A program made the position numbers and the translations under genes. Below, one piece after another: positions 10,376 through 64,000 of a stretch of 64,000 bases of DNA. Every line of letters starts with the position of its first letter. Positions within the stretch are counted from its first letter, which is position 1. The notes under the pieces were generated by a model that worked only from the letters and a program-made list of their open reading frames with translations, was not told the DNA's origin and did not search any database. Origin of the DNA: Warburgia ugandensis (Eukaryota; Streptophyta; Magnoliopsida; Canellales; Canellaceae); NCBI GenBank assembly GCA_035236585.1, contig CP141127.1, forward strand, positions 51,830,001-51,894,000, in the 5' to 3' direction.

Positions 10376-10383
10376 CTCTCTCT

Positions 10384-12226: not shown

Positions 12227-15200
12227 TACCCACCTCCAGTCACAATTTGTTACATTGGGAAATAATGTACCTACCTAAATTATAAACTCCAATTTTGAAG
12301 ATTGGATAGAACAAAAAGCTGAAAGTCTTATAAATTTTAATTTTAGAAGATAGAATTTGTTGATAATATTGACATAATTACATTCTATTCAAAAAATGGA
12401 GTCCAATGTCAAAAAGAAAACTGAAAATGGAGTTCGGATGAAAAAGTTATGAACATTTGAATATGAAGGGCATTTTAGAAATTAATAAAAGGATTCAAAA
12501 CGCATGGGCCATTTGAATATGAAGGGCACTTTTAAAGATGAAGGGCATTTAAGTAATTTAAAGATAGAAAAATGGATTCAAAATGCATGGGGACATTTTG
12601 ATAACAACACCCTCCCTTTGTCGCTACATCTGCACCACATCTGCACCCCATTGCGTAGGGAAAGACGATAGGCGGTTGCGATGCCCACCTCTTGTCACTG
12701 TTTGCACCGTTGGGAAGTAATGTACCCAATTTTAAGGTGCTATTTGGAAGATTGGATTAAATAGGAGGATGAATGTTTTATAAAGATTGAATTAAGAATT
12801 TGTTAATGGAATCCAACGGCTCAAAGAAGACTAAAAACAAAGTTCGTATAAAAATTTATGAGCATTTGATGTTGAAGGTTATTTTGGAAATCAAAAGATT
12901 CAAAAAAAAAAAGATTCAAAATGTAGGTAGGCTATCACGTCTCCCCCAAGAAAGAAGGTAGGCTATCATGCTACCCACCTCCAGTCACAATTTGTAACGT
13001 TGAGAAATAATGTAACTACCTAAATTATAAAGTCCTATTTGGAAGATTGGATTGAACAGGAAGATGAATGTCATATAAATTTTAATTTTAGAAGATATAA
13101 TTTTTTGATAATATTCACATAATTAGATTCTGTTCAAAAAATGGATTCCAATGTCACAAAGAACACTGAAAATGGAGTTCAGATGAAAAAGTTATGAACA
13201 TTTGAATATGAAGGGCATTTTAGAAATTAAAATAAAAAAGGATTCAAAACACATGGGGCCATTTGAATATGAAGGGTATTTAAGTAATTAAAAGATAAAA
13301 AAAAAGGATACAAAATGCATGGGGACATTTTGATAACAACACCCTCCCTTTGCCTTTGCATCTGCACCCCATTGTGCAAGGAAAGATGATAGGCGGTCGC
13401 GATGCCCACCTCTTGTCACAGTTTGTAGCGTTGGGAAGCAATGTAACTACCCCAATTTTAAGGTCCTATTTGGAAGATTGGATTAAATAGGAGGATGAAT
13501 GTTTTATAAAGATTGAATTAAGAATTTGCTAATGTAGTCCAATGGCTCAAAGAACATTGAAAACAAAGATCGTATGAAAAATTTATGAGCATTTGATGTT
13601 GAAGGTCATTTTAGTAATCAAAAGATTCAAAAAAAAAAAAAAGGAGCAAAAATGTAGGGAGCATTTTGATGATGACACCCTCCCTCCATCTCACATCCCC
13701 CCCTAGAAAGAAGGTAGGCTATCATTCTACCCACCTCCAGTCACAGTTTGTTACATTGGGAAATAATGTTACTACATACATTATAAAGTCCTATTTGGAA
13801 GATTGGATCTAATAGGAAGATGAATGTGTTATAAATTTTAATTTTAGAAGATAGAATTTGTTAATAATATTCACATAATTAGATTCTATTCAAAAAATGG
13901 AGTCCAATGTCACAAAGAACATTGAAAATGGAGTTCGGATGAAAAAGTTATGAACATTTGAATATGAAGGGCATTTTAGAAATTAAAATAAAAAAGGATT
14001 CAAAATGCATGGGGACATTTGAATATAAGGATTACAAAAAAAAGGATTCAAAATGCATAGAAACATTTTGATAACAACACCCTCCCTTTGTCTCTACATC
14101 TGCCCCACATCTGCACCCCATTGCGTAGGGAAAGGTGATAGGCGGTCACGATGCACGCCTCTTGTCACAGTTTCTAGTGTTGGGAAGTGATGTAACTACC
14201 CCAATTTTAAGGTCCTATTTGGAAGATTGGATTAAATAGGAGGATGAATGTTTTATATAGATTGAATTAAAAATTTGCTAATGGAATCCAATGGCTCAAA
14301 GAAGACTGATAACAGAGTTCGTATAAAAAATTTATGAGCATTTGATGTTGAAGGTTATTTTGGTAATCAAAAGATTCAAAAAAAAAAAAAAAGATTCAAA
14401 ATGTAGGGAGCATTTTTGATGATGACACTCTCCCTTTGTCTCCGCATCTGCACCACATCTGCACCCTATTGCGCAAGGAAAGACGATAGCCAGTCGCGAT
14501 GCCCACCTCTTGTCACTGTTTGCAGCATTGGGAAGGAATGTAACTACCCCAACTTTTAGGTCCTACTTGGAAGATTAGATAAAATAGGAGGATGAAAGTT
14601 TTATAAAGATTGAATTAAGAATTTGTTAATGGAATCCAACGGCTCAAAGAACACTAAAAACAGAGTTCGTATAAAAAATTTATGAGCATTTTATGTTGAA
14701 GGTCATTTTGGAAATCAAAAGATTCAAAAAAAAAAAAAAGAGTAAAAATGTAGGGAGCATTTTGATGATGACACCCTCCCTCCATCTCATGTCTCCCCCA
14801 AGAAAGAAGGTAGGCTATCATGCTACCCACCTCTAGTCACAATTTGTTACGTTGAGAAATAATGTAACTACCTAAATTATAAAGTCCTATTTGGAAGATT
14901 TGAATGAACAGGAAGATGAAAGTCTTATGTATTTTAATTTTAGAAAATAGAATTTGTTCATAATATTCACATAATTAGATTCTATTCAAAGAATGGAGAC
15001 CAATGTCACAAAGAACACTGAAAATGGAGTTCGGATGAAAAAGTTATGAACATTTGAATATGGAGGGCATTTTAGAAATTCAACGAAAAAAGATTCAAAA
15101 AGCATGGGGCCATTTCAATATGAAGGGCATTTAAGTAATTAAAATATTAAAAAAAAAAAAAAAGCATTCAAAATGCATGGATCCATTTTGATAACAACAC

Positions 15201-17152
15201 CCTCCCTTTGTCTCCGCATCTGCACCCCATTGCGCAGGGAAAGATGATAGGCGGTCGCGATGCCCACCTCTTGTCACTGTGTGTAGCATTGGAAAGAAAT
15301 GTAACTACCCCAATTTTAAGGTCCTATTTGGAAGAGTGGATTAAATAGGAGGATGAATGTTTTATAAAGATTGAATTAAGAATTTGTTAATGGAATCCAA
15401 CGGCTCAAAGAACACTGAAAAAAGAGTTTGTATAAAATATTTATGAGCATTCGATGTTGCAGGTTATTTTGGTAATCAAAAGATTCAAAAAAAAAAAAAA
15501 GGAGTCAAAAGGTAGGAAACATTTTGATGATGAAACCCTCGCTCCATCTCACGCCTCCCCCAAGAAAGAAGGTAGGCTAACATGCTGCACACCTCCAGTC
15601 ACAGTTTGTTACGTTGGGAAATAATGTAACTACCTAAATTATAACCTCCTATTTTAAAGATTGGATTGAACAGAAAGATGAATGTCTTATAAATTTTAAT
15701 TTTAAAAGATAGATTTTGTTGACAATATTCACATAATTACATTCTATTCAAAAAATGGAGTCTAATGTCACAAAGAACACTGAAAATGGAGTTCGGATGA
15801 AAAAGTTATGAACATTTGAATATGAAGGGCATATCGGAAATTAAAAAAAGGATTCAAAATGCATTGGGCCATTTTCATAACAACACCCTCCCTTTGTCTC
15901 TTCCTCTGCACCACATCTGCACCCCATTGCGTAGGGAAAGACAATAGGCGGTCGCGATGCCCACGTCTTGTCATTGTTTGCAGCATTGGGAAGCAATGTA
16001 ACTAACCCAATTTTAAGGCCCCATTTGGAAGATTGGATTAAATAGGAGGATGAATGTTTTATAAAGATTGAATTAAGAATTTGTTAAAGGAATCCAACAG
16101 CTCAAAGAAGACTGAAAACAGAGTTCGTATAAAAAAATTTATGAGCATTTGATGTTGAAGGTCATTTCTTGTAATCAAAAGATTCAAACAAAAAAAAAAG
16201 GGAGTCACAATGTGGGAAGCATTTTGATGATGACACCCTCCCTCCATCTCACGTCTCCCCCAAGAAAGAAGGTAGGCTATCACGCTACCCACTTCCAGTC
16301 ACAGTTTGTTATGTTGAGAAATAATGTAGAACCTAAATTATAAAGTCCTATTTGGAAGATGAAAGTCTTATAAATTTTAATTTTAGAAGATAGAATTTGT
16401 TGATAATATTCACATAATTAGATTCTATTCACAAAAATGAAGTCCAATGTCACAAAGAACATTGAAAATGGAGTTCGGATGAAAAAGTTATGAACATTTG
16501 AATTTGAAGGGCATTTTAGAAATAAAAATAAAAAAGCATTGAAAACGCATGGGGCCATTTGAATATGAAGGGCACTTTTAAAGTTGAATGGCATTTAAGT
16601 AATTAAGAGATTTAAAAAAAAAAAAGCGTACAAAATCCATGGGGCCATTTTGATAACAACACCCTCCCTTTGTCTCTGTATCTGCACCACATCTGCACCC
16701 CATTGCGCAGGGAAAGACGATAGGCGGTCGCGATGCCCACCTCTTGTCACTGTTTGCAATGTTGGGAAGTAATGTAACTACCCCAATTTTAAGGTCCTAT
16801 TTGGAAGATTGGATTAAATAGGACGATGAATGTTTTATAAAGATTGAATTAACAATTTGCTAATGGAGTCCAATGGCTCAATGAACACTGAAAACAGAGA
16901 TCATATAAAAAATTTATGAGCATTTGAGGTTGAAGGTCATTTTGGTAAGCAAAAGATTAAAAAAAAAAAAAAAGGAGCCAAAATGTAGGGAGCATTTTGA
17001 TGATGACACCATCCCTCCATCTCACGTCTCCCCCTAGATAGAAGGTAGACTATCATTCTACCCACCTCCAGTCAGAGTTTGTTACATTGGGAAATAATGT
17101 TGCTACAAAAATTATAAAGTCCTATTTGGAAGATTGGATCTAATAAGAAGAT
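12227..17152 (+). repeat. Satellite array, left part (~780-bp dimer, about 7 units)
   Basis: This is tandem DNA of two related monomers. Monomer A (~330 bp) starts around CCTATTTGGAAGATTGGATTAAAT and contains TGGAATCCAACGGCTC, a poly-A tract and GCATTTTGATGATGACACCC. Monomer B (~420-450 bp) contains TGGAGTCCAATGTCACAAAG, AGGGCATTTTAGAAATT and CCATTTTGATAACAACACCC. A-monomer anchors (GGAATCCAAC or similar) lie near 12806, 13535, 14280, 14628, 15388, 16087 and 16862. Most intervals are 700-780 bp, but 14280 to 14628 is only ~350 bp (hybrid unit). The array is cut on the left by the family B LTR and interrupted on the right by the insertion at 17158. There is no coding content. Confidence 0.9.
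14280..14628 (+). repeat. Hybrid short satellite unit (A joined to B tail)
   Basis: Two A-type anchors are only ~350 bp apart. The first starts as monomer A, but after the poly-A tract and GATGATGACACTC it continues as the end of monomer B (CTTTGTCTCCGCATCTGCACC). This is consistent with unequal exchange at the homologous CATTTTGAT block shared by both monomers. Confidence 0.7.
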
Positions 17153-17157
17153 GAATG
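17153..17157. repeat. Target-site duplication GAATG (left)
   Basis: GAATG lies directly before the LTR terminus TGTGATGACC at 17158. The same five bases follow the LTR end at 41203, and the satellite consensus AGATGAATGTCTTATAAA has one copy at this place. So the whole 17158-41203 block goes back to one insertion into the satellite. Confidence 0.9.
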
Positions 17158-18040: not shown

Positions 18041-18466
18041 TGTGATGACTCCAATTTTGTAATATTGAAATTCCAAGTTTAGCAATGAAAAGTTCAATTT
18101 TAAAGAAAAGGGCATTTTGGTCATTTCACTAGTCTCCTTAACTAAACCCAGGAATTTAGTCCTAAAATTGGTTCCATTAGATGCGTCTCGGAAAAAGGAA
18201 TCCAACAAGACCAAAATCACCCAAAACGGAGTTAAAATGAGCAAGATATGGCCCTTTGAAGTTCAGGGGCAAAACTGTAAATTTCACAAAACGACTTAAC
18301 CTGAAAAACACAGGTGCCCGTTTTGATACGGGCACCCCGTCATCTTCAACCTCCTAGAGGTTTCTGGAACAGCAGTGTTTCAAGAAGAAACCACCGCCAT
18401 TCTAGAGGGTTCCCCACCGCCATTCAAAGGCGGTTAGAACCCCTCCAGAACCCTCTGTAAAAGCTC

Positions 18467-18474
18467 TATAAATA
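18467..18474 (+). promoter_or_regulatory. LTR TATA box (family A 5' LTR)
   Basis: TATAAATA lies ~426 bp inside the LTR within GCTCTATAAATAGAGCTC, a small palindrome. It is identical at 25717-25724 in the 3' LTR. It is the likely promoter of the genomic RNA. Confidence 0.75.
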
Positions 18475-20134
18475 GAGCTCTTGGGTGCCTCTAATGGTAG
18501 CTGAAAAGCCTTGGAGAAAACTAGTCGTGAAGCAGTGACCAAGGGGGGAAAACGTAGAGAGAAAACCACCCACGAAGTAGGTATACTCCGAAACTCCCCA
18601 AACCCATCTCACCCATAGTCCTAGGCTCAGTTTCCCTAGGTTTTTCCATGAAAAACCATGGAGAATAGGCCTCCAGGAGAGCCACAAAGACCCCTGGGAC
18701 GTCCCCAGGCCGCACTGGTTCGAACCAGGGTGACCTGAGGACGACCCAGGTCACTAACAAGCGGGACGATCCAATAGGACCGTCCCACGTCGATGCAGGT
18801 CGACACCGTTTGAAAAACCAAACGGACGCGCTTGCTAAAGAGAAGGACGTGCAGAGTTGTATCGCGCGTCTACAGACGCGCCCGCTGAGGCGCACGCCGC
18901 ATACACGCAGCGCACTAGTGAAGCGTCATTTTTTTGGTTTCTTAAGGATGCTGGGCGCACGTCGCAGACGCGTAGCGCCCTAGCATTCCTCTTTTTTTTT
19001 TGTCTTTAAGACTATATGTACATACAATGTTAAAACGCTTATAACTTGAGATCTAGAGCTCCGATTGAGGCCCCGCAAAAGGCATTGTGTCCATATCGAC
19101 GACGCGGACACATACAAACCATAAAATCCCTGATCAAGGCCCAATCAAAGGAGAGCATGACCCTTAGAATAGGATGATGGCGCTGACCACTAGAACTTTG
19201 GAAAACTGAGAATACCAAGGTTTAATTAGGACCTTGGGACACCCATAGGCATAGGGATGGACCCCTAATGCCTAAGTAATGTGACCCAACTGCTTTAAAC
19301 CCATCAAAGATAGGTTAAACTAACCTTGAGTCCCCAAAGCATGTTCAGGAGCGTACGAGGATAAAGGGGTTAACGTGACCTAGTCAGGTAGGTGCTCTAT
19401 CACTATTAGATTCTTTTAAAAGAACTATTGTTATTTGAGAACATATGTTTTGGATATATGACTTGATTTTCATGTGATTTGTATGAATAAATTCAGCATG
19501 CATGTTAAATGCTTTGTACATAGGCATGTTTTGGAATGACTGCATATACATTATGCACATACATGTGTTGCAAACAAGTGCATGCATTGCATGATTTACG
19601 TACTTGCAAAAGATTGCATGTCCTTGAGGGTTGCCAAAAGACGCTGGAGTGCCGAGGGCTAGGTCGTTGTGAGGGACCCAAAAGAGGACAAGTTTTAACA
19701 AAAGGTTTTGACTTATCTTATGTGATTTGGGCAAGTAAGCCCGTGGGTGCTATGCCGAGGGGTCTGGGTTGGCCACCCGGCCTCTACCACTAATAGGTGG
19801 ATGGGTACCACGCCCAAAAAGAGGCAAGTCCCTACGTCGACTGCATGTGGTACAGGGGGCTACCACTGGTGTCACGGCACTGGGTCGGCGTGTCATAGGC
19901 CCCGTGGAGGCTATGACCAAGTGTCCTCAGGTACCCGGGGACCACACGGTGAGGAGGTCGTGGGCATAGTGGACCCTATGGTTTAATGTGCATTTCATGT
20001 AGCATGATATGAAGTTGGTCGACCATACCATACTAGGGGTCCATGAGTTGGACTCCATGAGGCATCTATTGCATATCATGATGTTATCATATATATGATA
20101 CTTTAACTTTTGGAATTAGGTGATCTTTTAAGTT

Positions 20135-20268
20135 ATTTTGAATTTCAGTTGATTATGGATTCTTATACTGATGTTGAACTCGAGTATTCAACCATACGCA
20201 TATTTTGAATTTCAGTTGATTATGGATTCTTATACCAATATTGAACTCGAGTATTCAAAAATACGCAT
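20135..20268 (+). repeat. 67-bp tandem duplication in 5' LTR
   Basis: Two units start ATTTTGAATTTCAGTTGATT, at 20135 and 20202, with a few differences. The 3' LTR has the same pair at 27380-27513, so it belonged to the parent element. Confidence 0.9.
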
Positions 20269-20708
20269 GTTTTGAATGAATGAGCATATGATTTTAAAAC
20301 ATCTCATGCATTTATAAAACTAGTAGTGATAGGCCCTACTGAGTATATTATATACTCACCCAATCCCCAATACTTTTTAGATACAAAGTAAATACCTAAG
20401 GGCAAGGGACATTTGCACTAGGAGGCACAGGCCAAGCACAAGTAAGTAGACCCCTATCTTATCTTTCAATGTTACTTGATTGTAGTTACTCTCTAATAGC
20501 TAGGGCTGTGACTAACACTTTCTTGGGAACATTATTGATTTAAAACTTTGCCATGACTAAATAGATTGAGAATGTGTTTCACACTCGGGGTTTTTATGAA
20601 AGGTTGTTTTCCAAATGAAAAAGAATTTCATGAATTTCATATTTATAAAACAAGAGATCTCGCCTTTTTATCAACATTGCATCACTTAAAAACCCAGGTC
20701 GTGACAGT

Positions 20709-20720
20709 TGGTATCAGAGC
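20709..20720 (+). other. Primer-binding site, tRNA-iMet type (family A)
   Basis: TGGTATCAGAGC lies two bases after the LTR end. It is the same site and spacing as in family B. Confidence 0.95.
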
Positions 20721-20846
20721 ACAGTTTAATGTTACTCACAGCCCAGTTATGAGGAGACTAACTTATAATCAAGTTTCATCCATGAAAGAGAAAGGGGTAA
20801 TAGGATAACACAAACTAAGATTTGGTGAATTGCCTTATGATTACAG

Positions 20847-21866
20847 ATGCCTAGAAAGAAGGGAAGCAAGGCTCCAAGACCTGAAGCCCCACCAGTGGAC
20901 TCCACTGGGTTGGGCAACGGAATGGCTGAGTTATTTCAGCAATTCTTACAGAACATGGGACAATACATGAATAGTCATAGCCAAACTCCTACCCCCCGAG
21001 ATCCTTCCCCTGATAAAACATTAGACAGGACTGAGGTTCAGTTAGAAAGGTTTCAGAAACTAGCTCCCTCATTCACAGGAGAAGATGAAGCATCCATAGC
21101 TGAAAAATGGTTAATTGATATTGAAAAGATATTTAAGGCCATGAACATAGCTGAGGATAGAAAAGTACCCATGGCCACATTTGTGTTTAGAGGAGAGGCT
21201 ACCTTTTGGTGGGAAACAGCAGAAAGAACTTATTTTGATCAACAAGAAACAATAGGATGGGAAGAGTTTAAAAAGGTCTTTAATGACAAATATTATCCTA
21301 AACATATAAGGAAACAAAAGGAAAAGGATTTATGGACTTAGAACAAGGAAATATGACCGTCCAACAGTATGAAAGTAAATTCATCAGCCTCCGAAGATTT
21401 GCACCCCGTGCTTGTGCTGATGAAGAAGATGCAGCTGAAAGATTTGTAGACGGACTCAACCCAGGACTCAGGAACAGAGTTCTAGGTTTCCAACCTCCCA
21501 CAGTAGCCAAAGCAGTAGAGATGGCCTCCCTATATGAAAAAGATTATCAAAGGAACTAGGCAATAAGGGAAACTAAGAACATCAACACTATGAAGAACAA
21601 AGGAAAGAGACCCTTTCAGTCATCTGGACCTAGGCCACCGTTCAAGAAGCCGTTTGAAAACAAAGGAAGAAGACCATACTGGAAGGCATGCCCTAGGTGT
21701 AACAGAAACCATCCAGGCAAACCATGTCCCACTTCCAACATCACTTGTTATAGTTGTGGAGAATTAGGACATTTTTCTAGCAACTGTCCAAAAAGGAAAG
21801 TGCAAGAGCATCAAGTTCCAAAAAGCCAAGGACGTGTCTTTGCCCTGACTTCCAGTCAAGCCCAAA
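20847..21866 (+). pseudogene. gag: Broken gag (capsid and nucleocapsid)
   Basis: The start is MPRKKGSK at 20847. The first 164 codons hold the gag/retrotransposon capsid region (LERFQKLAPSFTGEDEA, AEKWLIDIEKIF, WWETAERTYF, WEEFKKVFNDKYYP), typical of plant gypsy capsids. A 1-bp loss near 21325-21331 shifts the frame; the continuation MDLEQGNMTVQQYESKF starts at 21332. A TAG at 21557-21559 interrupts it, probably from CAG. The nucleocapsid part has a CPRCNRNHPGKPC knuckle and then a classical CCHC knuckle CYSCGELGHFSSNC at 21746-21787. A 1-bp gain near 21866 returns the frame to that of pol. The product would assemble the virus-like particle and bind RNA; this copy cannot make it intact. Confidence 0.9.
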
Positions 21867-22380
21867 GCATCAAACGCAGTCGTTGAAGGTATTCTTTCTA
21901 TCTATGATACACCTGCAAAAGTTCTATTTGATACAGGCTCCACTCATTCTTTCATATCCCAGGAATTTGCATCATCCTTGGACATTATACCACAGGACCT
22001 AGACTTCACTCTAGAAGTCATGACTCCTGTAGGCTAGGCACTCCCCACTTATTCTTATCTCCAGGATGTCCCCATATTGGTTAAGGACCATTTGTTACAT
22101 GCCAACCTTATCCACTTAGATATGAATGACTTCGACATCATCCTAGGTATGGACTGGCTAGCCTTTCATCAAGCCTTTGTTGATTGTCGTCAGAAGTGTG
22201 TCACTTTTACCCTACCTAATGGAGACACTTTCACCCTCCAAGGAAGAAAGGATTATTCTGGAGCATGTGTTATCTCTGTCATGAAAGCAGTTAAACACAT
22301 TGCTCAAGGATGCCCCTTCTTCTTAGCCAAGATAGAATCCGTCAAGAATCCCCAACCAAAGCTTGAGAATGTCGAGGTTG
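21867..22380 (+). pseudogene. pol: Aspartic protease region of pol (interrupted)
   Basis: In the pol frame the sequence reads ASNAVVEGILSIYDTPAKVLFDTGSTHSFIS in effect, with the catalytic DTG at 21930-21938. The downstream FDIILGMDWL motif near 22127 is typical of plant gypsy proteases. A TAG at 22035-22037 interrupts it. This enzyme would cleave the Gag-Pol precursor. It is fused in frame with reverse transcriptase downstream, as usual for the family. Confidence 0.88.
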
Positions 22381-23120
22381 TTCGAGAATTCCCTGATGTA
22401 TTCCCGGAGGACTTACCAGGTCTACCTCCACCAAGGGAAATTGAGTTCATCATTGACCTTATACCCGGTACTTCCCCCATTTCCAAAGCTCCTTACTGAA
22501 TGGCTCCTGCAGAACTAAGGGAACTAAAGACACAGTTACAGGAACTACTTGACAAAGGGTTCATACGACCTAGTGTGTCTCCGTGGGGAGCTCCAGTCCT
22601 TTTTGTTAAGAAAAAGGATGGCTCGATGAGATTGTGCGTAGACTATCGGATGCTAAATAGGGTCACCATTAAAAATAAGTACCCTCTTCCCCGAATTGAT
22701 GATCTTTTTGATCAACTTCAGTCAGCTAGAGTCTTCTCTAAGATTGATCTACGATCAGGGTACCATCAACTTTGAGTTAGAGAAGAAGATATCCCCAAGA
22801 CAGCCTTCAGGACTCGATACGGCCATTATGAATTCAGAGTGATGTCCTTTGGTTTGACTAATGCTCCAGCCGCGTTTATGGATCTCATGAATAGGGTGTT
22901 CAAGGAGTACTTAGATAAATTCATCATAGTGTTTGTGGATGATATATTAATATATTCTGAAACTCTTGAAGACCATGTAGAACATTTAAGGATAACATTA
23001 AGCACCCTACGAGCACACAAGCTATATGCAAAATTCAGTAAATGTGAATTTTGGCTGGAAAAGGTTAATTTCTTAGGACACATTATATCTCAAGATGGCA
23101 TAGCAGTTGACCCTACTAAG
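22381..23120 (+). pseudogene. pol: Reverse transcriptase domain (two stops)
   Basis: It opens with FPDVFPEDLPGLPP and the [25 protein letters not shown] region. It then has [37 protein letters not shown] and the catalytic FVDDILIYS box, with its first aspartate at 22938-22940. A TGA at 22497-22499 stands where the family has arginine in PYRMAP, and a TGA at 22773-22775 where arginine follows HQL. Both are one C-to-T change from CGA. Without them the domain looks full length. Confidence 0.93.
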
Positions 23121-23720
23121 GTTGAAACAGTACAAAACTGGGAAAGACCTAAGACGGTCACAGAAATAAGAAGCTTCTTAGGACTTGTTGGATATTACAG
23201 AAGATTCATCGAAGGTTTTTCACAAATGGCTTTACCTCTAACTAAGCTAACCAGGAAAGACACAAGATTTGAATGGACTGATAAATGTGAGGAAAGCTTC
23301 CAAGAACTAAAAAGAAGGTTGACTATCACACCTGTCCTTACCTTACCATCAGGAAGTGGCAAATTTGAGATATATAGTGATGCCTCGCAACAAGGGCTAG
23401 GCTGCGTACTTATGCAACATGGGAAGGTGATCGCTTATGCTTCTCGACAACTCAAGAAGCATGAAGTCAATTACCCAACCCATGACTTGGAATTAGCAGC
23501 CATAGTCTTTGCCTTGCGAATATGGAGACATTATTTATATGGGGAAAAGTTTGAAGTTTTTACAGATCACAAGAGTCTTAAATATATCTTTTCCCAACAA
23601 GACTTAAACATGCGACAAAGAAGATGGATGGAATACTTAAAAGACTATGACTTCTCCATTCATTATCACCCTGGAAAAGCTAATGTGGTAGCTGATGCAT
23701 TAAGGAGAAAAACCCAAGGG
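23121..23720 (+). pseudogene. pol: RNase H domain and connection
   Basis: After the connection ([18 protein letters not shown]) the RNase H reads [18 protein letters not shown], with the catalytic aspartate at 23379-23381. It continues with [23 protein letters not shown] (catalytic glutamate) and [14 protein letters not shown] (aspartate), and closes with [16 protein letters not shown]. The usual serine before RK is arginine here. No stop falls within this part. It would degrade the RNA strand during reverse transcription. Confidence 0.93.
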
Positions 23721-25106
23721 ATGTGTGCAAGTTTATTAACCAAGAGATGGAAACTACTACAAGAAGTAATCACATGGAAACTAGACATAAGTAAGCACAA
23801 GATCATTATGGCAGGTCTAACAATAAAATCGACTGTTAATGAAAAAGTTAAGCAAGAACAGAAAGGAGATCCAAATATACAAGCTTCCATAGGAAAACCA
23901 GGATTTACAAAAAAGGAAGATGGTAGCATTTACATGCAAGGAAGATTAGTGGTACCAGCTAATGAAGAGTTAAGAAAAGAAATTTTAAAAGAGGCTCATC
24001 GGTCCAAGTATACAATACACCCAGGAGGGACTAAGATGTATCAGGACTTAAAGAAACAATATTGGTGGGATGGTATGAAAAGAGACATAGGGGAATTTGT
24101 GGCAAAGTGTTTAACATGTCAACAAGTAAAGGCTGAACATCAAAGACCTGCAGGATTGTTACAACTCCTTGAGTTACCCGAATGGAAATGGGACCATATC
24201 ACAATGGACTTCAGCGTAGGGCTACCCAAGACCTCTAAGGGTCATGACATGATTTGGGTGATTGTTGATAGATTAACTAAGACAGCCCATTTCCTTCCTA
24301 TACGCCATACCCAATCCACTGACAGCCTATCTCAGCTATACATCAAAGAGATAGTAAGTCTACATGGTATACCCCTTAGTATCACTTCAGATAGGGATAG
24401 CCGCTTCACCTCACAACTCTGGAAGTCCATCCAAAAATCCTTAGGATCTTCCTTGAACTTTAGCATAGCCTTCCATCCATAGACCGATGGACAGTCAGAG
24501 TGCACAATCCAGATAGTCGAAGATATGTTACGAACTTGTGCCCTTGATTGGAAGCAAAGTTGGGATGAAAACCTACCACTAGTCGAGTTTGCGTACAACA
24601 ATAGCTTTCAGTCAAGCATTGGCATGGCTCCATACGAGGCGCTCTATGGGATACCTTGTCGATCACCCACCAGTTGGAGTGAAGTTGGAGAATCCAAGGT
24701 GCTCCAGTCCGAGCTGGTAGAGCAATGTGCCGAGAAGGTCAGACTCATAAGAAGCCGCCTCCTCACAGCTCAAAGCCACCAAAAGAGCTATGCTGATCGA
24801 AGGAGGAGACCATTGGAGTTCGACGTAGGAGAGCACGTTTTCCTGAAGATATCTCCCACTAAAGGAGTTATGAGGTTCGGTATCAAAGGCAAGCTTAGTC
24901 CGCGTTACATAGGAACTTTCAAAATCCTGGAAAAAGTGGGAAAAGTGGCCTACAGGATCGCGCTACCCCCTCAGCTATCCGAAGTGCATAACGTATTCCA
25001 TGTGTCTATGCTAAGGAGGTATGTGCCTGACCCCGCTCATGTCATCGACCAGGTACCCATAGAGATGACGGAGGATCTCAGATTAGAGACAAGACCAGTT
25101 GAGATT
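23721..25106 (+). pseudogene. pol: Integrase (HHCC, DD35E, GPY/F-like), one internal stop
   Basis: The zinc-binding part has histidines at 23997 and 24018 and cysteines at 24108 and 24117 (H-x6-H-x29-C-x2-C). The catalytic triad is aspartate 24207 (TMDFS), aspartate 24390 (SDRDSRF) and glutamate 24498 (GQSE), with 35 residues between the last two. A TAG at 24480-24482 replaces the glutamine of the HPQTDGQSE motif (CAG to TAG). The residue after GQSE is cysteine where the family usually has arginine (CGC to TGC would explain it). The C-terminal part has GKLSPRYIGTFKILEKVG, a GPY/F-like module, and VHNVFHVSMLRRYVPDP. It would insert the cDNA into the genome. Confidence 0.93.
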
Positions 25107-25241
25107 TAGGATCATAAGAATAAGAAGCTGTGGAACAAGGACATGCCCTTAATCAAAGTTCTATGGAGAAATGCGCACATGGAAGAAGAAACTTGGGAAC
25201 CGGAGTCAGAAATGCAAGAAAAGTACCCCGAGATCTTTTGA
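25107..25241 (+). pseudogene. pol: C-terminal chromodomain of integrase, behind a stop
   Basis: After a TAG at 25107-25109 the frame continues to TGA at 25239-25241. It contains KVLWRNAHMEEETWEPESEM, the aromatic-rich chromodomain signature (LW, TWEPE) of chromovirus integrases. In this family the chromodomain is thought to guide integration to heterochromatin, which fits the satellite surroundings. Confidence 0.88.
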
Positions 25242-25277
25242 CTGTATATAGTAGAATTTTGGGGGCGAAATTCCCCT

Positions 25278-25290
25278 AAGGGGGTAAGAA
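25278..25290 (+). other. Polypurine tract (family A)
   Basis: AAGGGGGTAAGAA lies immediately before the 3' LTR. It is nearly the same as the family B tract AAGGGGGTAATAA. Confidence 0.9.
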
Positions 25291-25716
25291 TGTAATGACT
25301 CCAATTTTGTAATATTGAAATTCCAAGTTTAGCAATGAAAAGTTCAATTTTAAAGAAAAGGGCATTTTGGTCATTTCACTAGTTGCCTTAACTAAACCTA
25401 GGAATTTAGTCCTAAAAGTGGTTCCCTTAGATGCGTCTCGGAAAAAGGAATCCAACAAGACCAAAATCACCCAAAACGGAGTTAAAATGAGCAAGATATG
25501 GCCCTTTGAAGTTCAGGGGCAAAACTGTAAATTTCACAAAACGACTTAACCTCAAAAACACAGGTGCCCGTTTTGATACGGGCACCCCATCGTCTTCAAC
25601 CTCCTAGAGGTTTCTGGAACGGCGGTGTTTCAAGAAGAAACCACCGCCATTCTAGAGGGTTCCCCAGCACCATTCAAAGGCGGTTAGAACCCCTCTAGAA
25701 CCCTCTGTAAAAGCTC

Positions 25717-25724
25717 TATAAATA
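25717..25724 (+). promoter_or_regulatory. LTR TATA box (family A 3' LTR)
   Basis: This is TATAAATA in the same palindromic context as at 18467. In this position it could start read-out transcription into the flanking family B LTR. Confidence 0.65.
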
Positions 25725-27379
25725 GAGCTCCTGGGTGCCTCTAATGGCAGCCCAAAAGCCTTGGAGAAAACCAGTCGTGAAGCAGTGACCAAGGGGGGAA
25801 AACGTGGAGAGAAAACCACCCACGAAGCAGGTATACTCCAAAACTCCGCAAACCCACCTCACCCATAGTCCTAGGCTCAGTTTCCCTAGGTTTTTCCATG
25901 AAAAACCATGGAGAATAGGCCTCCAGGAGAGCCACAAAGACCCCTGGGACGTCCCCAGGCCGCACTGGTTCGACAGGGTCAAACTAGGGTGACCTGAGGA
26001 TGACCCAGGTCACTAACAAGCAGGAAGATCCAATAGGACTGTCCCACGTCGACGCAGGTCGACGCCGTTTGAAAAACCAAACGGGCGCGTCCGTGGACGC
26101 GCCCCTAAAGAGAAGGACGTGCGGAGTTGTATGCGCGCGCCGCAGACACGCAGCGCACTAGCGAAGCGTCATTTTTTTGGTTTCTTAAGGATGCTGGGTG
26201 CACGTCGTAGACGCGCAGCGCCCTAGCATTCCTCTTCTTTTTTTTGTCTTTAAGACTATATGTACACACAATGTTAAAACGCTTATAACTTGAGATCTAG
26301 AGCTCCAATTGAGGCGCCGCAAAAGGCGTTGTGTATGTATCGACGACATGGAAACATACAAACCATAAAATCCCTTATCAAAGCCCAATAAAAGGAGGAC
26401 ATGACCCTTAGAATAGGATGATGGCGCGTGACCACTAGAACTTTGGAAAACTGAGAATACCAAGGCCTAATTAGGACCTTGGGACACCCATAGGCATAGG
26501 GATGGACCCCTAATGCCTAAGTAATGAGACCCAACTGCTCTAAACCCCTCAAAGATAGGTTAAACTAACCTTGAGTCCCCAAACCATGTTCAGGAGTGTA
26601 CGAGGACAAAGGGGTTAACGCGACCTAGTCAGGTAGGTGCTCTATCACTATTAGATTCTTTTAAAAGAACTATTGTTATTTGAGAACATATGTTTTGGAT
26701 ATATGACTTGATTTGCATGTGATTTGTATGAATAAATTCAGCATGCATGTTAAATGCGTTGTACTTAGCCATGTTTTGGAATGACTGCATATACATTATG
26801 CACATACATGTGTTGCAAACAAGTGCATGCATTGCATGATTTACGTACTTGCAAAAGATTGCATGTCCTTGAGGGTTGCCAAAAGACGCTGGAGTGCCGA
26901 GGGCCAGGCAGTTGTGAGGGACCCAAAAGAGGACAAGTTTTAACAAAAGGTTTTGACTTATCTTATGTGATTTGGGCAAGTAAGCCCGTGGGTGCTATGC
27001 CGAGGGGTCTGGGTTGGCCACCCGGCCTCTACCACTAATAGGTGGATGGGTACCACGCCCAAAAAGAGGCAAGTCCCTATGTCGACTGCATGTGGTACAG
27101 GGGGCTACCACTGGTGTCACGGCACTGGGTCGGCGTGTCATAGGCCCCGTGGAGGCTATGACCAAGTGTCCTCAGGTACCCGGGGACCACACGGCGAGGT
27201 GGTCGTGGGCATAGTGGACCCTATGGTTTGATGTGCATTTCATGTAGCATGATATGAGGTTGGTCGACCATACCATACTAGGGGTCCATGAGTTGGACTC
27301 CATGAGGCATCTATTGCATATCATGATGTTATCATATATATGATACTTTAACTTTTGGAATTATGTGATCTTTTAAGTT

Positions 27380-27513
27380 ATTTTGAATTTCAGTTGATTA
27401 TGGATTCTTATACTGATGTTGAACTCGAGTATTCAACCATACGCATATTTTGAATTTCAGTTGATTATGGATTCTTATACCAATATTGAACTCGAGTATT
27501 CAAAAATACGCAT
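27380..27513 (+). repeat. 67-bp tandem duplication in 3' LTR
   Basis: This is the counterpart of 20135-20268, with units starting at 27380 and 27447. Confidence 0.9.
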
Positions 27514-27951
27514 GTTTTGAATGAATGAGCATATGATTTTAAAACATCTCATGCATTTATAAAACTAGTAGTGATAGGCCATACTGAGTATATTATATAC
27601 TCACGCAATCCCCAATATTTTTCAGATACAAAGTAAATACCTAAGGGCAAGGGACATTTGCACTAGGAGGCACAGGCCAAGCACAAGTAAATAGACCCCT
27701 ATCTTATCTTTCAATGTTATTTGATTGTAGTTACTCTCTAATAGCTGGGGCTGTGACTAACACTTTCTTGGGAACATTATTGATTTAAAACTTTGCCATG
27801 ACTAAATAGATTGAGAATGTGTTTCACACTCGGGGTTTTTATGAAAGGTTGTTTTCCAAATGAAAAAGAATTTCATGAATTTTATATTTATAAAACAAGA
27901 GATCTCGCCTTTTTATCAACATTGCATCACTTAAAAACCCGGGTCGTGACA

Positions 27952-27956: not shown

Positions 27957-28877
27957 CCATTCCACCTAATAGTGGTAGAGGCTAGACGCCAACTCAGACC
28001 TCTCGTCATAGCGCCCACAAGCTTATTAACCCAAATCATATAAGATCAAACAACCAAAAACCTCTTTGTCAAAACCTGTCCTCTTTGGGTCCCTCACAAC
28101 TGCCTACCCAGCGTCTTTTGGGCAGTCTAACGTCTTTTGGTAACCCTCAAGGACATGCAATTTTTTTCAAGAACTCAATGCTCACAAATCATGCAATATA
28201 TGCAATTGTTTGCAAACCATGTCTATGCATAATGTATTTATCATATGTATGCCGAATTAAGTCACGCTAGTCATATACTTATACTTAAAACATGCATTTT
28301 CAAAACAATCATGGCTCTTTTAAAAAGTCTAGTAGCGATAGAGCACCTACCTCAAAGTCTCCTAGAGTTGCGTCCTTTATCACTCAACCCATCCCTGGGT
28401 CTCATTTATAAACTCCTGGGCATGAATGGATACAAGGAGTCCTTATCAATTTCAATCTATTTAGACATTAGATCGCTAGATCTGCCTTTAGGGTCCATGG
28501 TCCTTACCTAATTCATTTGTCAGGCTAGATCCTATGATATGGATCTACTATTCAATAGTTAAACTCTGTAAATTGTCCTCTGATCCTAACTTTAAAGTCT
28601 CATTAGGTCCGTGTGTCCCAGTTCCCAGGACACCCGTGCATCCTGGTTGAACCGCGATCGCCTCACGTGCGTACGTGCCGAAAGACCGTGCCAGGGACAG
28701 CGTTTTGCACGCGCACATGCATGCTCAAGCGACACGCTATGACGCGCATCATGGATGGCATCGCACGGACGTACCTTTGGTGTAACATGGCGCGTCTCAG
28801 CTCTCAGGGCACCTCGTGCATCCTGGTCGAGCCAGGATCCATGCCCCATGTCACGCGCGCACCCGAAGGCCGCACCT
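27957..28877 (-). mobile_element. Family B 3' LTR, second part (copy 3, reverse, truncated)
   Basis: It continues the LTR broken at 18040 (CCATTCCACCTAATAGTGG onward, as at 39408). It stops at about 28877 in CCGAAGGCCGCACCT, where the sequence jumps to the internal region equivalent to 6030. The last ~0.9 kb of LTR, the polypurine tract and ~0.1 kb of interior are deleted. Confidence 0.85.
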
Positions 28878-30454
28878 TAGGAATCAATTCTAGGCTCAAC
28901 CTCAATTTATCATTTTTATTGTTCCATCTACAAGGCCTTACCTATAAGGGCCACTTTCGCTGCGTACTCTGATGCATACTCCCATGCATGCCAGTTTAAC
29001 AATACCGGTTTCTAGCGGTAATTCATCTATCTCAAAATCCTTAGATGCCTATACTTTTGTCATCATGTATAGGATAGTCTCCTCGTAGGCTCATACTTCT
29101 TTATTCATGCATAAATTACTCCATACTTCTTTGAGATCATATGATCTTCTTTCTCATAGTCCTTTTTGAATATCATAGGATAATCCCTTTTTCTTCTTGT
29201 CTTTCATCTAGTGATCTCTTCATCATCCACATCTCCTTCTAATGTTTGGTTATATGTCATTCGTAAGAGTCCAACTAAATTACCTTCTTTCTATTGTGTC
29301 TAACTTTGCTTCTTATCTTTCATATTTGTTCCCAAGATACTTCAATAACTGACATGGTATCATGTGCTCTATAGCCAAACCCTTGATTAACTTCGAATTT
29401 TCAACTGTCTGTCATTTTCCATATGTGACTTGATTCCTCGACCAAAGCTACATAAAATCATGGAAGCCAATTAGTAACATCTTTCATCGAGGACATTATC
29501 ATATAGTGAAAGTAAAATGTCCTTACTCTATATCCAGTTTCATAATTATTAAATTCTTTAAACGCTTTTCTCATGTCAAATGTTAATGGTCAATTCATCA
29601 TCATGGGTCAAATGTTCTTGTCCAGAGGCTTATGTCACTATTCACATCAATTTGTCATTAGGATTTTCAATAATGTTCCCATTTATGTAAAGCAAAAAGT
29701 CTCTTATTCATAATCTAGCACCCTTACTAGGTCATGGTTGAATCCTTTGTCATCATCCTCTTTGTCCTTTCTTTTCTTGATAGTTTTCTTTGTAACCTTT
29801 CAGCCCAAAAGTTCTATACTCAATCCAGTAGGGTTAGTCCTTAGGAAATTCCTTCAATTGATTTTTCGTACTTGGTATATGCTCATAACGACTAACTTTT
29901 TCTCTAAAGGCAATGTAACATCACATCTCACCTTATATTGTGCTGACCACCTCAACTTTTCTTCTTCTATTCCCTATATCAATATGTTGTTCAATCTTTT
30001 ATCAAGGCTTTATCGTCAATCATGCAGTCTGTATTGTCAGGAGGTATCCTCATAAGTAGTGATTTTCAAGTGTTCCCTCATACTTAGCTTATAAAAATAA
30101 TTCTCCTTCAATGACGATTATATCAAATTGTACTGAAGTTGTTAACTCAACAAGTTTAACAACACTCAGGTAAGCATAAAACATTTTCTTAGACATAGAA
30201 AGACTTTATTTGATTACCTATTGATCTCTTTCCAGATATATCTATATCATAAGCTCAAGGGCCTCTAAAGTGATCAGTACTTATTTGCCTTCCTTTTTAA
30301 TCCAAGTTGGCAGCATCTTTCAGTCTCAAAGTAATTTCTATGGTTTGTTATGGTATCTATTTAGGTTTGGAAAAATTTGTCTCACTGGTGGAGATCGTTC
30401 CTTATTTTTGCTTATGTCTCAATTGTTACTGTATTTATTGTACTTGTAGCTCCT

Positions 30455-30498
30455 CCATGATGTGGCCTAATCAACTTCATGATGTGGCCTAACCAACT
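30455..30498 (-). repeat. 22-bp direct duplication (copy 3)
   Basis: This is the counterpart of 2531-2574 and 7627-7670. Confidence 0.85.
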
Positions 30499-32237
30499 GA
30501 CCTCATACCCTCAAGTGACTTAGTCTAATAAGTAACTTCTTTTAGGTAGAACTCATGTCCAAATACTTATAATATCCCTTTGAGTATATAACTTCGACTA
30601 CTAACTCATAGATACTAACATACTTGATTAATTAGGGTGGGATACCTTTATTTAGTACTCTAAAGGTAATGACTAAATAATGGTCTTAAGATTTCAGGTC
30701 TTCCAATCTAGGATAGTAAGACCCCAATTTGATCCTTGATGGTACCCTACTTGCTAAATGGACAAGTCACTGTCCTGGCTTAATTCCTTTTTCAATATAC
30801 TTTATTGGCAAGGTGGGATATTACCAAATTTTTCTTTTTATGGATTATATTCATTGGTGTTCCCCATAAGCTAATGGATCAGATAAGAATCTAATTGTAA
30901 TAATTGATATCAAACCATTTGTAGAATTTAATTTCTAGTTGGTCATCATTCTTCTTTGGAAATTTCTTGTCGCATAATCCCCTGAAATTCAATACTCTAC
31001 TCAAAGTCTTAAAGCCCATATGCTTTCTCTCTTTTATACTCTTTTACAATAAGATCACCAACTCATCTAGTATTATTGCTTCGTATTGTTTGGTTTACCT
31101 TCCTATAGGATTCAAGATGAAAGATTTGTATGTATCTTTATAGAGTCATGATCTTCTTATTTTGACTATTCAATATTCATTGAATACTTATAGTTACATC
31201 TCTATCTCTTTCTCTCTTTTCTTCAAAATCCTCATTTGGTCTACCTGGATCAATATCTCTATATGCTTTGTTGCATATAATTGATACTTCATCATAAACT
31301 AAATGCTTCTCAGAAATTCTAAACTGTCTTAAGATCATTGAAATCCTCTATTGCCTATAGCCTCAATAAAATTCATACAATGTCTTAATAATGGCATTGA
31401 CATTTTGGTCATGCTATACTTTTCTTACAAGTTCATGTTAGGATCAATCTATTATCACAGATCTATCATCCCCAATATTATCGTCAAAAATCTTTTGATA
31501 ACTCTATCGAATTCATTTCCCATCATATTCGTGTTATGTTTCTCTTAATCACATGATATGTCACTCGTATACATCTTCTTATTTCCTCCATAATACTCAG
31601 GTAGTTACTATTCGATCGCACTTCACTCTTCATAAGATTCCAATTAAGGTATCAAAATTTGAGCTAAGTCCTTTAGGATCCATTCCTTTGTGATCTAGTA
31701 CGAGTCACAGTTATCCCCTAGTATCATCTTGCATTCTCATCCTTCTTGGATTATCATCAAAATCTTCTCAAAGTCTGTCTTTTACATCCCTTATCATACT
31801 CACATCATATCCCTTGTGATAGTGTGCTCATATTATGATATTCTTTATGATGGTAAGGTAGCTATCTAGGTTCTTCGATGTTCTCATCTTTGGTGAGATT
31901 GATCTATTACAGGTCAAAACTATCTACTAACAAGTCCACTAACATCTTCATTCATCATTCTCACCATAATATGATCATTATATGAGTTTTTATGTCTGCA
32001 CTACTGCACAACAATCCTTAATGATAAGATTTAAGACACCCAATATCTAAGTATTGACTAGACCCATCTCCTTTTTCACCTATTTGTTTATGGTGAAAGG
32101 CCTTGAGCATTAATATTGTAATCTTCAAACAGAAGTAGTCATCTCTACTACTCCTATTTATACTACTTCTTCTTGATTTTCTCTATTGTCTATGACCCTT
32201 GGACATGCTGGACTGGTTGTGAAAGGATAAAACCTGG

Positions 32238-32249: not shown

Positions 32250-32251
32250 AC

Positions 32252-61500: not shown

Positions 61501-64000
61501 TGCATGGGGCCATTTTGGTAACAACACCCTCCCTTTGTCTCTGCATCTGCACCACATCTACACCCTAATGCGCAAGGAAAGATGACAGGCGGTCGCGATG
61601 CCCACCTCTTGTCACTGTTTGCAGCGTGGGGAAGTAATGTAACTTCCCCAATTTTAAGGTCCTATTTGGAATATTGGATTAAATAAGAGGATGAGTGTTC
61701 TATAAAGATTGAATTAAAAATTTGCTTATGGAATCCAACGGCTCAAATAACACGGTAAACAGAGTTCGTATAACAAATTTATGAGCATTTGATATTGAAG
61801 GTCATTTTTGAAATCAAAAGATTCAAAAAAAAAAAAAAGGAAGTCGCAATGTAGGAGGCATTTTGATGATGACACCCTCGCTTCATCTCACGTCTCCCCC
61901 AAGAAAGAAGGTAGGCTATCAGGCTACCCACCTCCAGTCACAGTTTGTTACGTTGAAAATCAATGTAACAGCCTAAATTATAAAGTCCTATTTCCATGAA
62001 TTGGATTGAACAAGAAGATGAATGTCTTATAAATTTTAATTTTAGAAGATAGAATTTGTTGATAATATTCACATAATAGGATTCTATTCAAAAAATGGAG
62101 TCCAGTGTCACAAAGAACACAGAAAATGGAGTTCGGATGAAAAAGTTATGAACATTTGAATATGAGGGGCATTTTTGAAATTAAAACAAAAATGGGTTCA
62201 AAACGCAAGGGGCCGTTTGATTATGAAGGGCACTTTTAAAGATGAAGGGAATTTATGCAATTAAAAGATTAAAAAAGGATTCAAAATGCATGGGGCCATT
62301 TTCATAACAACACCCTCCCTTTGTCTCTGCATCTGCAGGACATCTGCACCCCAATGCGCAGGGAAAGGAGATAGGCAGTCGCGATGCCCACCTCTTGCCA
62401 CTGTTTGCAGCATGGGGAGGTAATGTTACTCCCCCAATTTTACGGTCTTATTTGGAAGATTGGATTAAATAGGAGGATGAATGGTTCATAATGATTGAAT
62501 TAAGAATTTGCAAATGGAATCCAACGGCTCAAAGAACACTGAAAACAGAGTTCGTATAAAAAATTTATAAGCATTTTATGTTGAAGGTGATTTTGGAAAT
62601 CAAAAGATTCAAAGAAAAATAAAAGGTGTCAAAATGTAGGGAGCATTTTGATGATGACACCCTCCCTCCATCTCACGTCTCCCCCCAAGAAAGAAGGTAG
62701 GCTATGATGCTACCCACCTCCAATCACAGTTTGTTACGTTGAGAATCTATGTAACTGCCTAAATTATAAAGTCCTATTTGCAACATTGGATTGAACAAGA
62801 AGATGAATGTCGTATAAATTTTAATTTTAGAAGATAGAATTTGTTGATAATATTCACATAATTAGATTCTATTCAAAAAATGGATTCAAAATGTCACAAA
62901 GAACACTGAAAATGGAGTTCGGATGAAAAAGTTATGAACATCTGAATATGAAGGGCATTTTTGAAATAAAAAGTAAAATGGTTTTAAAACGCATGGCGCT
63001 ATTTGATTATGAAGGGCACTTTTAAAGATGATGGGAATTTAGGCAATTAAAAGATAAAACAAAGGATTCAAAATGCATGGGGCCATTTTGATAACAGTAC
63101 CCTCCCTTTGTCTCTAAATCTACACCACATCTGCACCCCAATGCGCAACGAAAGCTGATAGGCAGTCACGATGCCCACCTCTTGTCACTATTTGTAGCGT
63201 GGGGAAGTAATGTAACTTGCCCAATTTTCAGGTCCTATTTGGAAGATTAGATTAAATAAGAGGATGAATGTTTTATAAAGATTGAATTAAAAATTTGCTA
63301 ATGGAATCCAATGGTTCAAATAACACTGTAAACAGAGTTCGTATAAGAAATTTATGAGCATTTGATATTGAAGGTCATTTTTGAAATCAAAAGATTCAAA
63401 AAAAAAAAAAGGAAGTCGCAATGTAGGAAGCATTTTGATGATGACACCCTCGCTTCATCTCACGTCTCCCCCAAGAAAGAAGGTAGGCTATCATGCTACC
63501 CACCTCCAGTCACAGTTTGTTACATTGAAAATCAATGTAACTGCCTAAATTATAAAGTCCTATTTCCATGAATTGGATTGAACAAGAAGATGAATGTCTT
63601 ATAAATTTTAATTTTAGAAGATATAATTTGTTGATAATATTCACATAATTAGATTCTATTCAAAAAATGGAGTCCAGTGTCACAAAGAACACTGAAAATG
63701 GAGTTCGGATGAAAAAGTTATGAACATTTGAATATGAAGGGCATTTTTGAAATTAAAACAAAAATGGGTTCAAAATGCATGGGGCCGTTTGATTATGAAG
63801 GGCACATTTAAAGATGAAGGGAATTTATGCAATTAAAAGATAAAAAAAAGGATTCAAAATGCATGGGGCCATTTTCATAACAACACCCTCCCTTTGTCTC
63901 TGCATCAGCAAGACATCTGCACCCCAATGCGCAGGGAAAGGCGATAGGCAGTCGCGATGCCCACCTCTTGCCACTGTTTGCAGCATGGGGAAGTAATGTT
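55590..64000 (+). repeat. Satellite block with ~3.1-kb higher-order period (four dimers)
   Basis: Variant marks repeat every fourth dimer. AAGTCGCAATG (or GAGTCGCAATG) occurs at about 55592, 58732 and 61842. AAAGAAAAATAAAAGG occurs at about 56363, 59505 and 62610. The CTATTTCCATGAATTGG variant occurs near 55740, 58880 and 61990. Steps are about 3105-3145 bp. The pattern is not perfect: the variant also occurs near 56530 and 63560. Confidence 0.65.
59995..60025 (+). repeat. Template-switch-like scar in a satellite unit
   Basis: After CTCCCTTTGTC the expected TCTGCATCTGCACC segment is replaced by ACTGTTTGCAGCGTGGGGA, a stretch that belongs ~60 bp further on and occurs there again. TTGTCACTGTTTGCAGC is thus present twice within one unit. 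Confidence 0.75.

Follow-up and report, generated by a model that had tools for sequence, protein, structure and literature searches.

The question raised by this locus is where its satellite came from. The window, that is, the whole stretch of 64,000 nucleotides of the Warburgia ugandensis contig that was analysed, carries A and B satellite monomers with a dimer period of about 780 bp, and a first-pass annotation had proposed that they were made from U3 sequence of gypsy LTRs. The 36 A-type and 36 B-type cores lie on one strand in two stretches (27.7 kb), and these 72 same-strand cores form the long head-to-tail array expected of an LTR-derived plant satellite. The span given with that proposal was 12227-64000; a composite insertion lies between the two stretches and the span is therefore only partly satellite:

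12226-17157, forward strand: satellite array, first stretch, A/B monomers, both ends falling within monomers
17158-41203, no strand assigned: composite insertion of nested LTR elements dividing one satellite array, TSD GAATG
41204-64000, forward strand: satellite array, second stretch, opening with the other GAATG copy and running past the window end

The GAATG copies are located at 17153-17157 (the last five bases of the first stretch) and 41204-41208, and joining the flanks of the insertion (one base short) gave one continuous B monomer. The earlier proposal that related elements entered the array later is supported.

Three LTR families were found in the window, together with copies of a block resembling the satellite (E-values are those of the A or B monomer models, except for family C):

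59-254, reverse strand: satellite-like block within the third family A LTR, which the window start truncates (B, 1e-12; A, 8e-6)
3794-4776, forward strand: family B LTR, shortened copy, polypurine tract immediately upstream
3885-4097, forward strand: its satellite-like block (A, 1e-20)
4779-5927, reverse strand: family B LTR, shortened copy
5661-5860, reverse strand: its satellite-like block (B, 1e-21)
9448-12225, reverse strand: family B LTR of nearly full length (2778 bp), first bases missing at the satellite junction
11926-12107, reverse strand: its satellite-like block (A, 4e-18; B, 4e-20)
18041-27951, forward strand: family A element, chromodomain Ty3/gypsy, LTRs 18041-20706 and 25291-27951, TSD GGTAC
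18152-18337, forward strand: satellite-like block within the 5' LTR of this element (B, 8e-9)
25427-25582, forward strand: satellite-like block within the 3' LTR of the family A element (B, 3e-7)
34015-38420, reverse strand: solo LTR of family C spanning about 4.4 kb (TG..CA; flanks GGAGC/GGACC)
38049-38149, reverse strand: family C module copy 2, the better match (E 0.0083)
38195-38293, reverse strand: family C module copy 1, 68% identical to copy 2
38514-41203, reverse strand: family B LTR, full length (2690 bp)
40894-41077, reverse strand: its satellite-like block (A, 2e-19; B, 3e-19)

The two LTRs of the family A element are 95% alike. Its gag-pol gave Pfam matches to gag, RVP_2, RT, RNase H, Integrase_H2C2 and SH3, with rve scoring under its Pfam cut-off, and a chromodomain follows at the integrase end as a 43-residue piece after a stop (Chromo, E 2.1e-5; its 24.8 bits fall short of the 25.1 cut-off). 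From the LTR ends and the domain order we take family A to belong to the Del/Tekay lineage. The pol ORF has many relatives in plants and no close one: of 8000 hits, the 120 listed reach an identity of at most 72%, across 48% of the query. In viral_contigs it found no relative. Family B has LTRs of about 2.7 kb, and its PBS (TTGGTATCAGAGC, directly after the 3' end of the LTR at 9448-12225) and PPT resemble those of family A. A tblastn comparison with four family A ORFs gave no match, and no Pfam domain was detected in the 8 ORFs tested, but the copies of the family are old and broken. The family may be LARD-like (non-autonomous). The family C LTR is probably solo because a second LTR copy is absent.

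The similarity from which the LTR proposal started was recounted. The ungapped alignment of 13878-13984 with 3909-4015 has exactly 83 of 107 identical positions and that of 15389-15415 with 3927-3953 exactly 26 of 27; block order is the same in LTR and satellite, and the strand matches too. When 300 letter-shuffled cores were each placed, ungapped, at their best position within the LTR at 3794-4776, the maximum was 52/107 (mean 44.5). The diverged copy reported for family A was found at the matching LTR place at 18152-18337, with further copies at 25427-25582 and 254-70. A model of the block was built from 7 LTR copies and used to score 70 monomers, 2 of the 72 cores being left uncut at stretch ends; all 70 scored between 30.7 and 82.2 bits while reversed monomers scored at most 0.4. 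Conversely, the best matches of the monomer models had E 9e-17 to 1e-22 in each of the four family B LTRs, while for the three LTR pieces of family A the range was 6e-5 to 1e-13; the other matches in the window had E of at least 0.11, the best of them being the family C module. A block of about 200 bases is homologous across LTR families A and B and the 70 monomers, and each monomer thus shares about 200 bases with LTRs of the same genome. Within the window the block is confined to LTRs and satellite and lies on the LTR strand. A pattern of the block had no match in viral_contigs, and its 4 matches in genome_contigs, to bacterial records, were taken as chance; no plant LTR was retrieved from either collection, and the sequence words of the block were not found in the literature searched.

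The claim that the monomer consists of LTR sequence stands for about half of it. Monomers are 293-429 bases long, and the remainder beyond the block, nearly half, is without LTR match in the window and mostly without match elsewhere in it. In 32 of 35 B monomers about 70 bases are duplicated inside the block, and A monomers lack about 40 bases of it. A and B are also alike over about 71 bases just upstream of the block (60/71). The proposal that both descend from one ancestral monomer is supported. The first ~40 of these bases match no LTR of the window and the last ~30 align weakly with one LTR per monomer model. As this stretch is largely without LTR match, the LTR block was probably just a part of the ancestral unit by the time A and B separated.

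In the LTRs, the block forms a conserved, bounded island, which speaks for it as a fixed component of them. Between the LTR A starting at 18041 and the LTR B starting at 41203, identity is 0.67-0.72 at LTR positions 101-300 and 0.39-0.54 over the rest of the first 1.4 kb (surrounding U3 near 45%). The homology between LTRA and LTRB stops about where that between LTR and satellite stops; a movable cassette would also fit this pattern. The position upstream of the promoter was borne out, a CTATAAA box lying about 65-175 bases downstream of the block in 7/7 LTRs long enough; within its first 700 bases each of 7 LTRs has a single TATAWA, which follows at 377-427 (A and B) or 546 (C). The LTRs have the ~40-base stretch missing from A and are without the duplication of B. 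Outside the block, LTRs of families A and B look mosaic: at LTR 1701-1900, the copy starting at 41203 is 0.87-0.90 identical to family A and 0.55-0.58 to the copy of its own family starting at 12225.

As far as block sequence goes, the satellite is nearest to family B. Mean block identity is 0.698 for LTRB-satB and 0.658 for LTRB-satA (to LTRA, 0.576 for satB and 0.543 for satA). LTRA and LTRB differ at 43 consensus columns; of these, satA agrees with LTRB at 26 and with LTRA at 6, and satB at 27 and 7. Over a gapless 49-base core (68 of 77 block rows usable), LTRB-satA (0.80) and LTRB-satB (0.775) exceed LTRB-LTRA (0.70). Monomers had been expected to nest inside the LTR tree. Instead, a single branch divided the 7 LTR blocks from the 70 monomers in an unrooted tree (support 100/99, the bootstrap being not fully settled); one well-supported branch between the two sets agrees with a single exchange event between LTR and satellite. 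The LTRs of the window are at least 30% diverged from the satellite over the block and are therefore cousins of the parent and not, as the annotation had it, the parent itself.

The family C LTR is very diverged; close to the position known from A and B, a portion of the block stands in it twice, in tandem. The module match alone is weak (6.9 bits), but 0/2000 dinucleotide shuffles scored as high, and a reverse search from the module recovered the block in register (for monomers A, monomers B and LTRs alike, 0/150 column-permuted controls reached the score). Core identity of the two modules to A/B LTRs and monomers is 0.52-0.61 over the 49 bases. Since the satellite is nearer to LTRB than this, the block seems to have had a history in LTRs before its link with the satellite arose.

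Combined, these data favour, with a probability of roughly three in four, an origin of the satellite from a DNA segment with the U3 block of a Del/Tekay-like chromovirus LTR, from a member related to family B. Of the LTR origin as first proposed, the significant homology and the closeness to family B are retained and the nesting of monomers in the LTR tree is not. The direction from LTR to satellite would follow from the presence of the block in three LTR families and from LTRs without the A deletion or the B duplication. The reverse, in which the satellite or its ancestor is older and the ancestor of A/B LTRs took a piece of it into U3 near the 5' end and spread it, appears unlikely. It draws on the unrooted tree, on the island-like shape of the shared stretch and on family C as outgroup, with which all five attachment points are compatible (p-AU 0.20-0.70), a root on the satellite side among them, the best-scoring lying on satellite A under both models. 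However, the block precedes the TATA box and lies close to the LTR start in three LTR families, the family B block is closer to the satellite than to family C, and, with neither A's deletion nor B's duplication in the LTRs, capture would have to precede the A/B split.

Still less probable is a common third source, an independent repeat or promoter cassette recombined among LTR families and also taken by the satellite; the about equal island ends in the two comparisons and the mosaic LTRs of both families would suit it, but the copies seen within the window all belong to LTRs or satellite and run on the LTR strand. AT-rich look-alikes, conceivable in a window of 63% A+T with a partly A-rich block, have a negligible probability given the reversed monomers (at most 0.4 bits against 30.7-82.2) and the shuffled cores (at most 52 against 83 of 107), and chance similarity was rejected on both controls.

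Under the LTR origin, the block would long have stood upstream of the promoter in these LTRs, and one of its copies, with flanking DNA, would have become a tandem repeat through unequal recombination or circle copying. An ancestral unit of about 330-400 bases may then have split into A, which lost about 40 block bases, and B, which in most copies gained the ~70-base duplication; the A-B pair would have become the repeating unit, and relatives of the parent element would later have inserted in the array.

Satellite births from LTRs are already known in plants, as the annotation had noted, and in animals, with Sobo, CRM4TR and RPCS being LTR- and U3-derived; PgDel2/Pg167TR of ginseng, considered as a possible parallel, was set aside because no statement of such a link appeared in the literature searched. 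Table 1 of PMC9659126 gives Sobo, St3-58, St3-238, St18 and St3-294 of potato species as related to LTRs, and these are likewise plant satellites tied to LTR retrotransposons. In the part of PMC3648361 on such repeats, the Sobo monomer is a 4.7 kb composite of LTR, satellite and genomic DNA, whereas here a ~780-base dimer holds the U3 block alone and the LTRs are clearly diverged. The same part traces the maize repeats CRM1TR and CRM4TR to LTR and UTR sequence of chromoviruses, a similar source, and describes later LTR retrotransposon insertions in CRM1TR arrays, as seen here. These repeats are 97-98% alike their living parents, in contrast to a block identity of about 66-70% here. CRM4TR also starts in U3 and includes the TATA box, which follows about 395 nt after its start (CRM1TR is described there as without the box); here the unit ends before the TATA box, and by eye neither consensus, A or B, shows a TATAWA downstream of the block. 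RPCS of Ctenomys has a short U3-related monomer of 348 bp, but it is a rodent, retroviral case whose monomer is reported there with a TATA box and other LTR signals. The Ogre-derived satellites of Lathyrus sativus also come from part of a retrotransposon, although from short tandem arrays downstream of gag-pol and not from U3; their direction is likewise discussed, being argued in the relevant part of PMC7004042 from repeats of two other species.

The present satellite is a fairly clean, old example added to several already listed. It is tied to a defined LTR part, the one directly preceding the promoter, and both of its monomer types lie alongside three LTR families. Should LTRs of other plants turn out to carry the block, this would reveal which LTR parts become satellites and make the birth datable. 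A doubtful but possible reading is that the block is a promoter-upstream regulatory module kept by chromovirus LTRs during U3 turnover and prone to tandem duplication in U3. If so, satellites would be seeded by enhancer-like modules and not by random LTR pieces, and the arrays would be rich in binding sites or small-RNA targets common to living elements. The AAGTTATG part of the block may resemble a soybean centromere satellite.

The satellite, a dimer repeat of about 780 bp composed of monomer types A and B (satA and satB), shares a block of about 200 bases, including a 107-base core, with the U3, upstream of the putative promoter, of retrotransposon LTRs of families A and B (LTRA and LTRB); a family C LTR (LTR C) carries a doubled, diverged module with weak similarity to it. 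The features concerned are the following.

3794-4776: family B LTR, shortened copy
4779-5927: family B LTR, shortened copy
9448-12225, minus strand: family B LTR, about 2.7 kb
12226-17157, cores on the plus strand: satellite array, first stretch (core model matches)
18041-27951: family A element, chromodomain Ty3/gypsy (LTRs, target-site duplication, PBS, purine tract, Pfam domains)
34015-38420, minus strand: family C LTR, apparently solo, about 4.4 kb
38049-38293, minus strand: doubled, diverged U3 module in the family C solo LTR
38514-41203, minus strand: family B LTR, about 2.7 kb
41204-64000, cores on the plus strand: satellite array, second stretch (core model matches)

The similarity between LTRs and satellite is real. 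The first-pass annotation had counted 83 of 107 identical positions, without gaps, between the satellite core and a family B LTR, and 26 of 27 between monomer A and the LTR; both counts were exact on recount. Among 300 shuffled versions of the core, the highest count was 52/107. The LTR that it placed at 3794-4772 does belong to family B and is one of the shortened copies. Profile models of monomers A and B hit the block in each of the four family B LTRs as well as in the three family A LTR pieces. In the reverse direction, a model of these seven LTR blocks scored each of 70 monomers at 30.7-82.2 bits, compared to at most 0.4 bits for reversed monomers. Outside the block, neither monomer model had a match of E below 0.1 to non-satellite DNA in the window (next came E 0.11, in the family C module), and homology is therefore limited to LTR positions ~90-310, or about 200 bases per monomer, with a weakly aligned edge extending to position 68 in one copy.

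The core model identified 72 cores in the array, all on the plus strand (36 of A type and 36 of B type), that alternate with the single exception of one A-A pair. The final core of each stretch, having no next core, was excluded, leaving the 70 monomers, of 293-372 bases for A and 332-429 bases for B (consensus lengths 364 and 420). The two stretches were once a single array, because GAATG is present on both sides of the nested-element block that separates them (17158-41203) and the joined flanks, one base short, read as one continuous B monomer. At 12225/12226 a family B LTR adjoins the satellite without its expected initial TG, and this junction is thus not a clean insertion end. Among the matches listed, the relatives of the pol ORF from named organisms are plant proteins; judged by sequence, the window is plant-like DNA.

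Within the LTRs, the block is a conserved island. When the family A 5' LTR (copy 18041) was aligned with a family B LTR (copy 41203), identity was 0.67-0.72 at positions 101-300 vs 0.39-0.54 over the remainder of the first 1.4 kb, and rose again to 0.65-0.90 at 1401-2300. The first-pass description of the block as promoter-upstream is supported by a single TATAWA, in a CTATAAA context, in the first 700 bases of all seven LTRs that extend this far; at positions 377-403 (family B), 427 (family A) and 546 (family C), it would place the promoter ~65-175 bases downstream of the block. By eye, no TATAWA was found downstream of the block in the A or B satellite consensus.

The satellite is closest to family B. 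Over 158 block columns, mean identity was 0.698 for LTRB-satB and 0.658 for LTRB-satA, compared to 0.576 for LTRA-satB and 0.543 for LTRA-satA (LTRA-LTRB, 0.697; satA-satB, 0.685). The LTRA and LTRB consensuses differ at 43 columns; of these, satA is LTRB-like at 26 and LTRA-like at 6, and satB at 27 and 7, respectively. In a gapless 49-base core comparison, which anchored 68 of 77 rows and dropped 8/35 A and 1/35 B monomers, satellite-LTRB identities (0.80 and 0.775) exceeded LTRA-LTRB (0.70), and LTRA-satellite values were 0.62-0.63.

LTR C carries two tandem copies of the module (127-225 and 271-371 in LTR coordinates), which are 68% identical. The better copy matched the A+B block model at E 0.0083 (6.9 bits), a score matched by none of 2000 dinucleotide shuffles of the 500-base stretch at the LTR C start. 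A model of the two copies aligned in register with the block of monomers and of LTRs alike, and for each set all 150 column-permuted controls scored below the real sequences. In the 49-base core, identity of the two modules to LTRA, LTRB, satA and satB was 0.52-0.61; LTR C also has a third GAGTT site, outside the module, for which it was 0.37-0.45. The homology, weak by score, is yet consistent in position, strand and register, which suggests a long-standing place for the block in these LTRs and the occurrence of tandem doubling within U3. The doubled module may picture the first duplication step.

The direction of transfer was addressed with a maximum-likelihood tree of 77 rows, for which the first-pass annotation had named monomers nesting inside the LTR family as the supporting outcome. 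A branch with support 100/99 separates the 7 LTR blocks from the 70 monomers (the bootstrap had not fully settled). LTRA, satA and satB are each set apart by a branch of their own. LTRB is not: its place is between LTRA and the satellite, and only 2% of 200 bootstrap trees have a branch that isolates it. Read as a history, the tree shows a single exchange between LTRs and satellite that may have run either way. With the two C modules added as outgroup, five attachment points were all retained (p-AU 0.20-0.70). Attachment on satA scored slightly better than the rest, which runs against transfer from LTR to satellite. That direction is argued for indirectly: three LTR families carry the block near the LTR start, upstream of the putative promoter; LTRB is less similar to LTR C than to the satellite; and the LTRs possess a ~40-base stretch missing from monomer A and are without the internal duplication present in 32/35 B monomers (second match 6.9-42.6 bits, 31/32 at 22.4 or more). 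The three B monomers without it (starts 15636, 42713 and 44180; 332 bases) branch off first among the B monomers in the tree; they may represent either the ancestral state or a secondary loss of the duplication.

Just upstream of the block, A and B have ~71 bases in common (60/71 identical), and some downstream sequence is also common to both. The first ~40 of these 71 bases had no LTR match within the window, and the last ~30 gave a low-confidence LTR alignment, in one copy per monomer model. Before A and B split, the ancestral unit therefore probably already comprised more than the LTR block, the additional part being perhaps fast-changing LTR DNA, perhaps host DNA. The first steps would have been unequal exchange, or else amplification by way of a circle. 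The best reading is that a family-B-like chromovirus LTR supplied the promoter-upstream block around which an old satellite was built, and that relatives of the parent element later re-entered the array. Of the original proposal, a U3-derived satellite split into A and B and amplified as a dimer, part is supported: the homology, the position of the block upstream of the putative promoter and the closeness to LTRB stand; on direction the tree is silent.

Satellites of this kind are already known. As here, LTR- or U3-related sequences are found in Sobo and several potato repeats, listed among LTR-derived plant satellites in a 2022 review (PMC9659126), in maize CRM4TR, which begins in U3, and in the rodent RPCS satellite, which resembles a U3 region (PMC3648361); many satellites are described as arising from retrotransposon tandem repeats in a study that treats the same question of direction, argued from related species (PMC7004042). 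Among the open-licence PMC papers listed, none was found to describe a U3 block that is both conserved among LTR families and present in a satellite.

The family A element has LTRs of 2.66 kb, 95% alike, a GGTAC target-site duplication, the PBS TTGGTATCAGAGC, a purine tract ahead of the 3' LTR, and Pfam domains for gag, protease, RT, RNase H, integrase zinc finger and SH3; a chromodomain piece sits behind a stop codon. Family B shares the PBS and purine tract. It looks non-autonomous, since no stretch of it matched any of four family A ORFs, and a Pfam check of eight ORFs gave no domain. Its internal region of ~3.4 kb (5928-9447 and 28877-32251) is ~85-87% kept between copies, with matches extending into the LTRs, and has no recognised coding domain; family B is possibly a LARD-like non-autonomous element. 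The tandem family B LTR pieces at 28877-41203 resemble the outcome of recombination between elements. There, a partial LTR (32252-34018 plus 38419-38513), interrupted by the solo LTR C, directly adjoins the full LTR 38514-41203. At LTR positions 1701-1900, the latter is 87-90% like family A (18041-20707) and just 55-58% like its family B relative 9448-12225. The LTRs thus look like mosaics, suggesting template switching between families.
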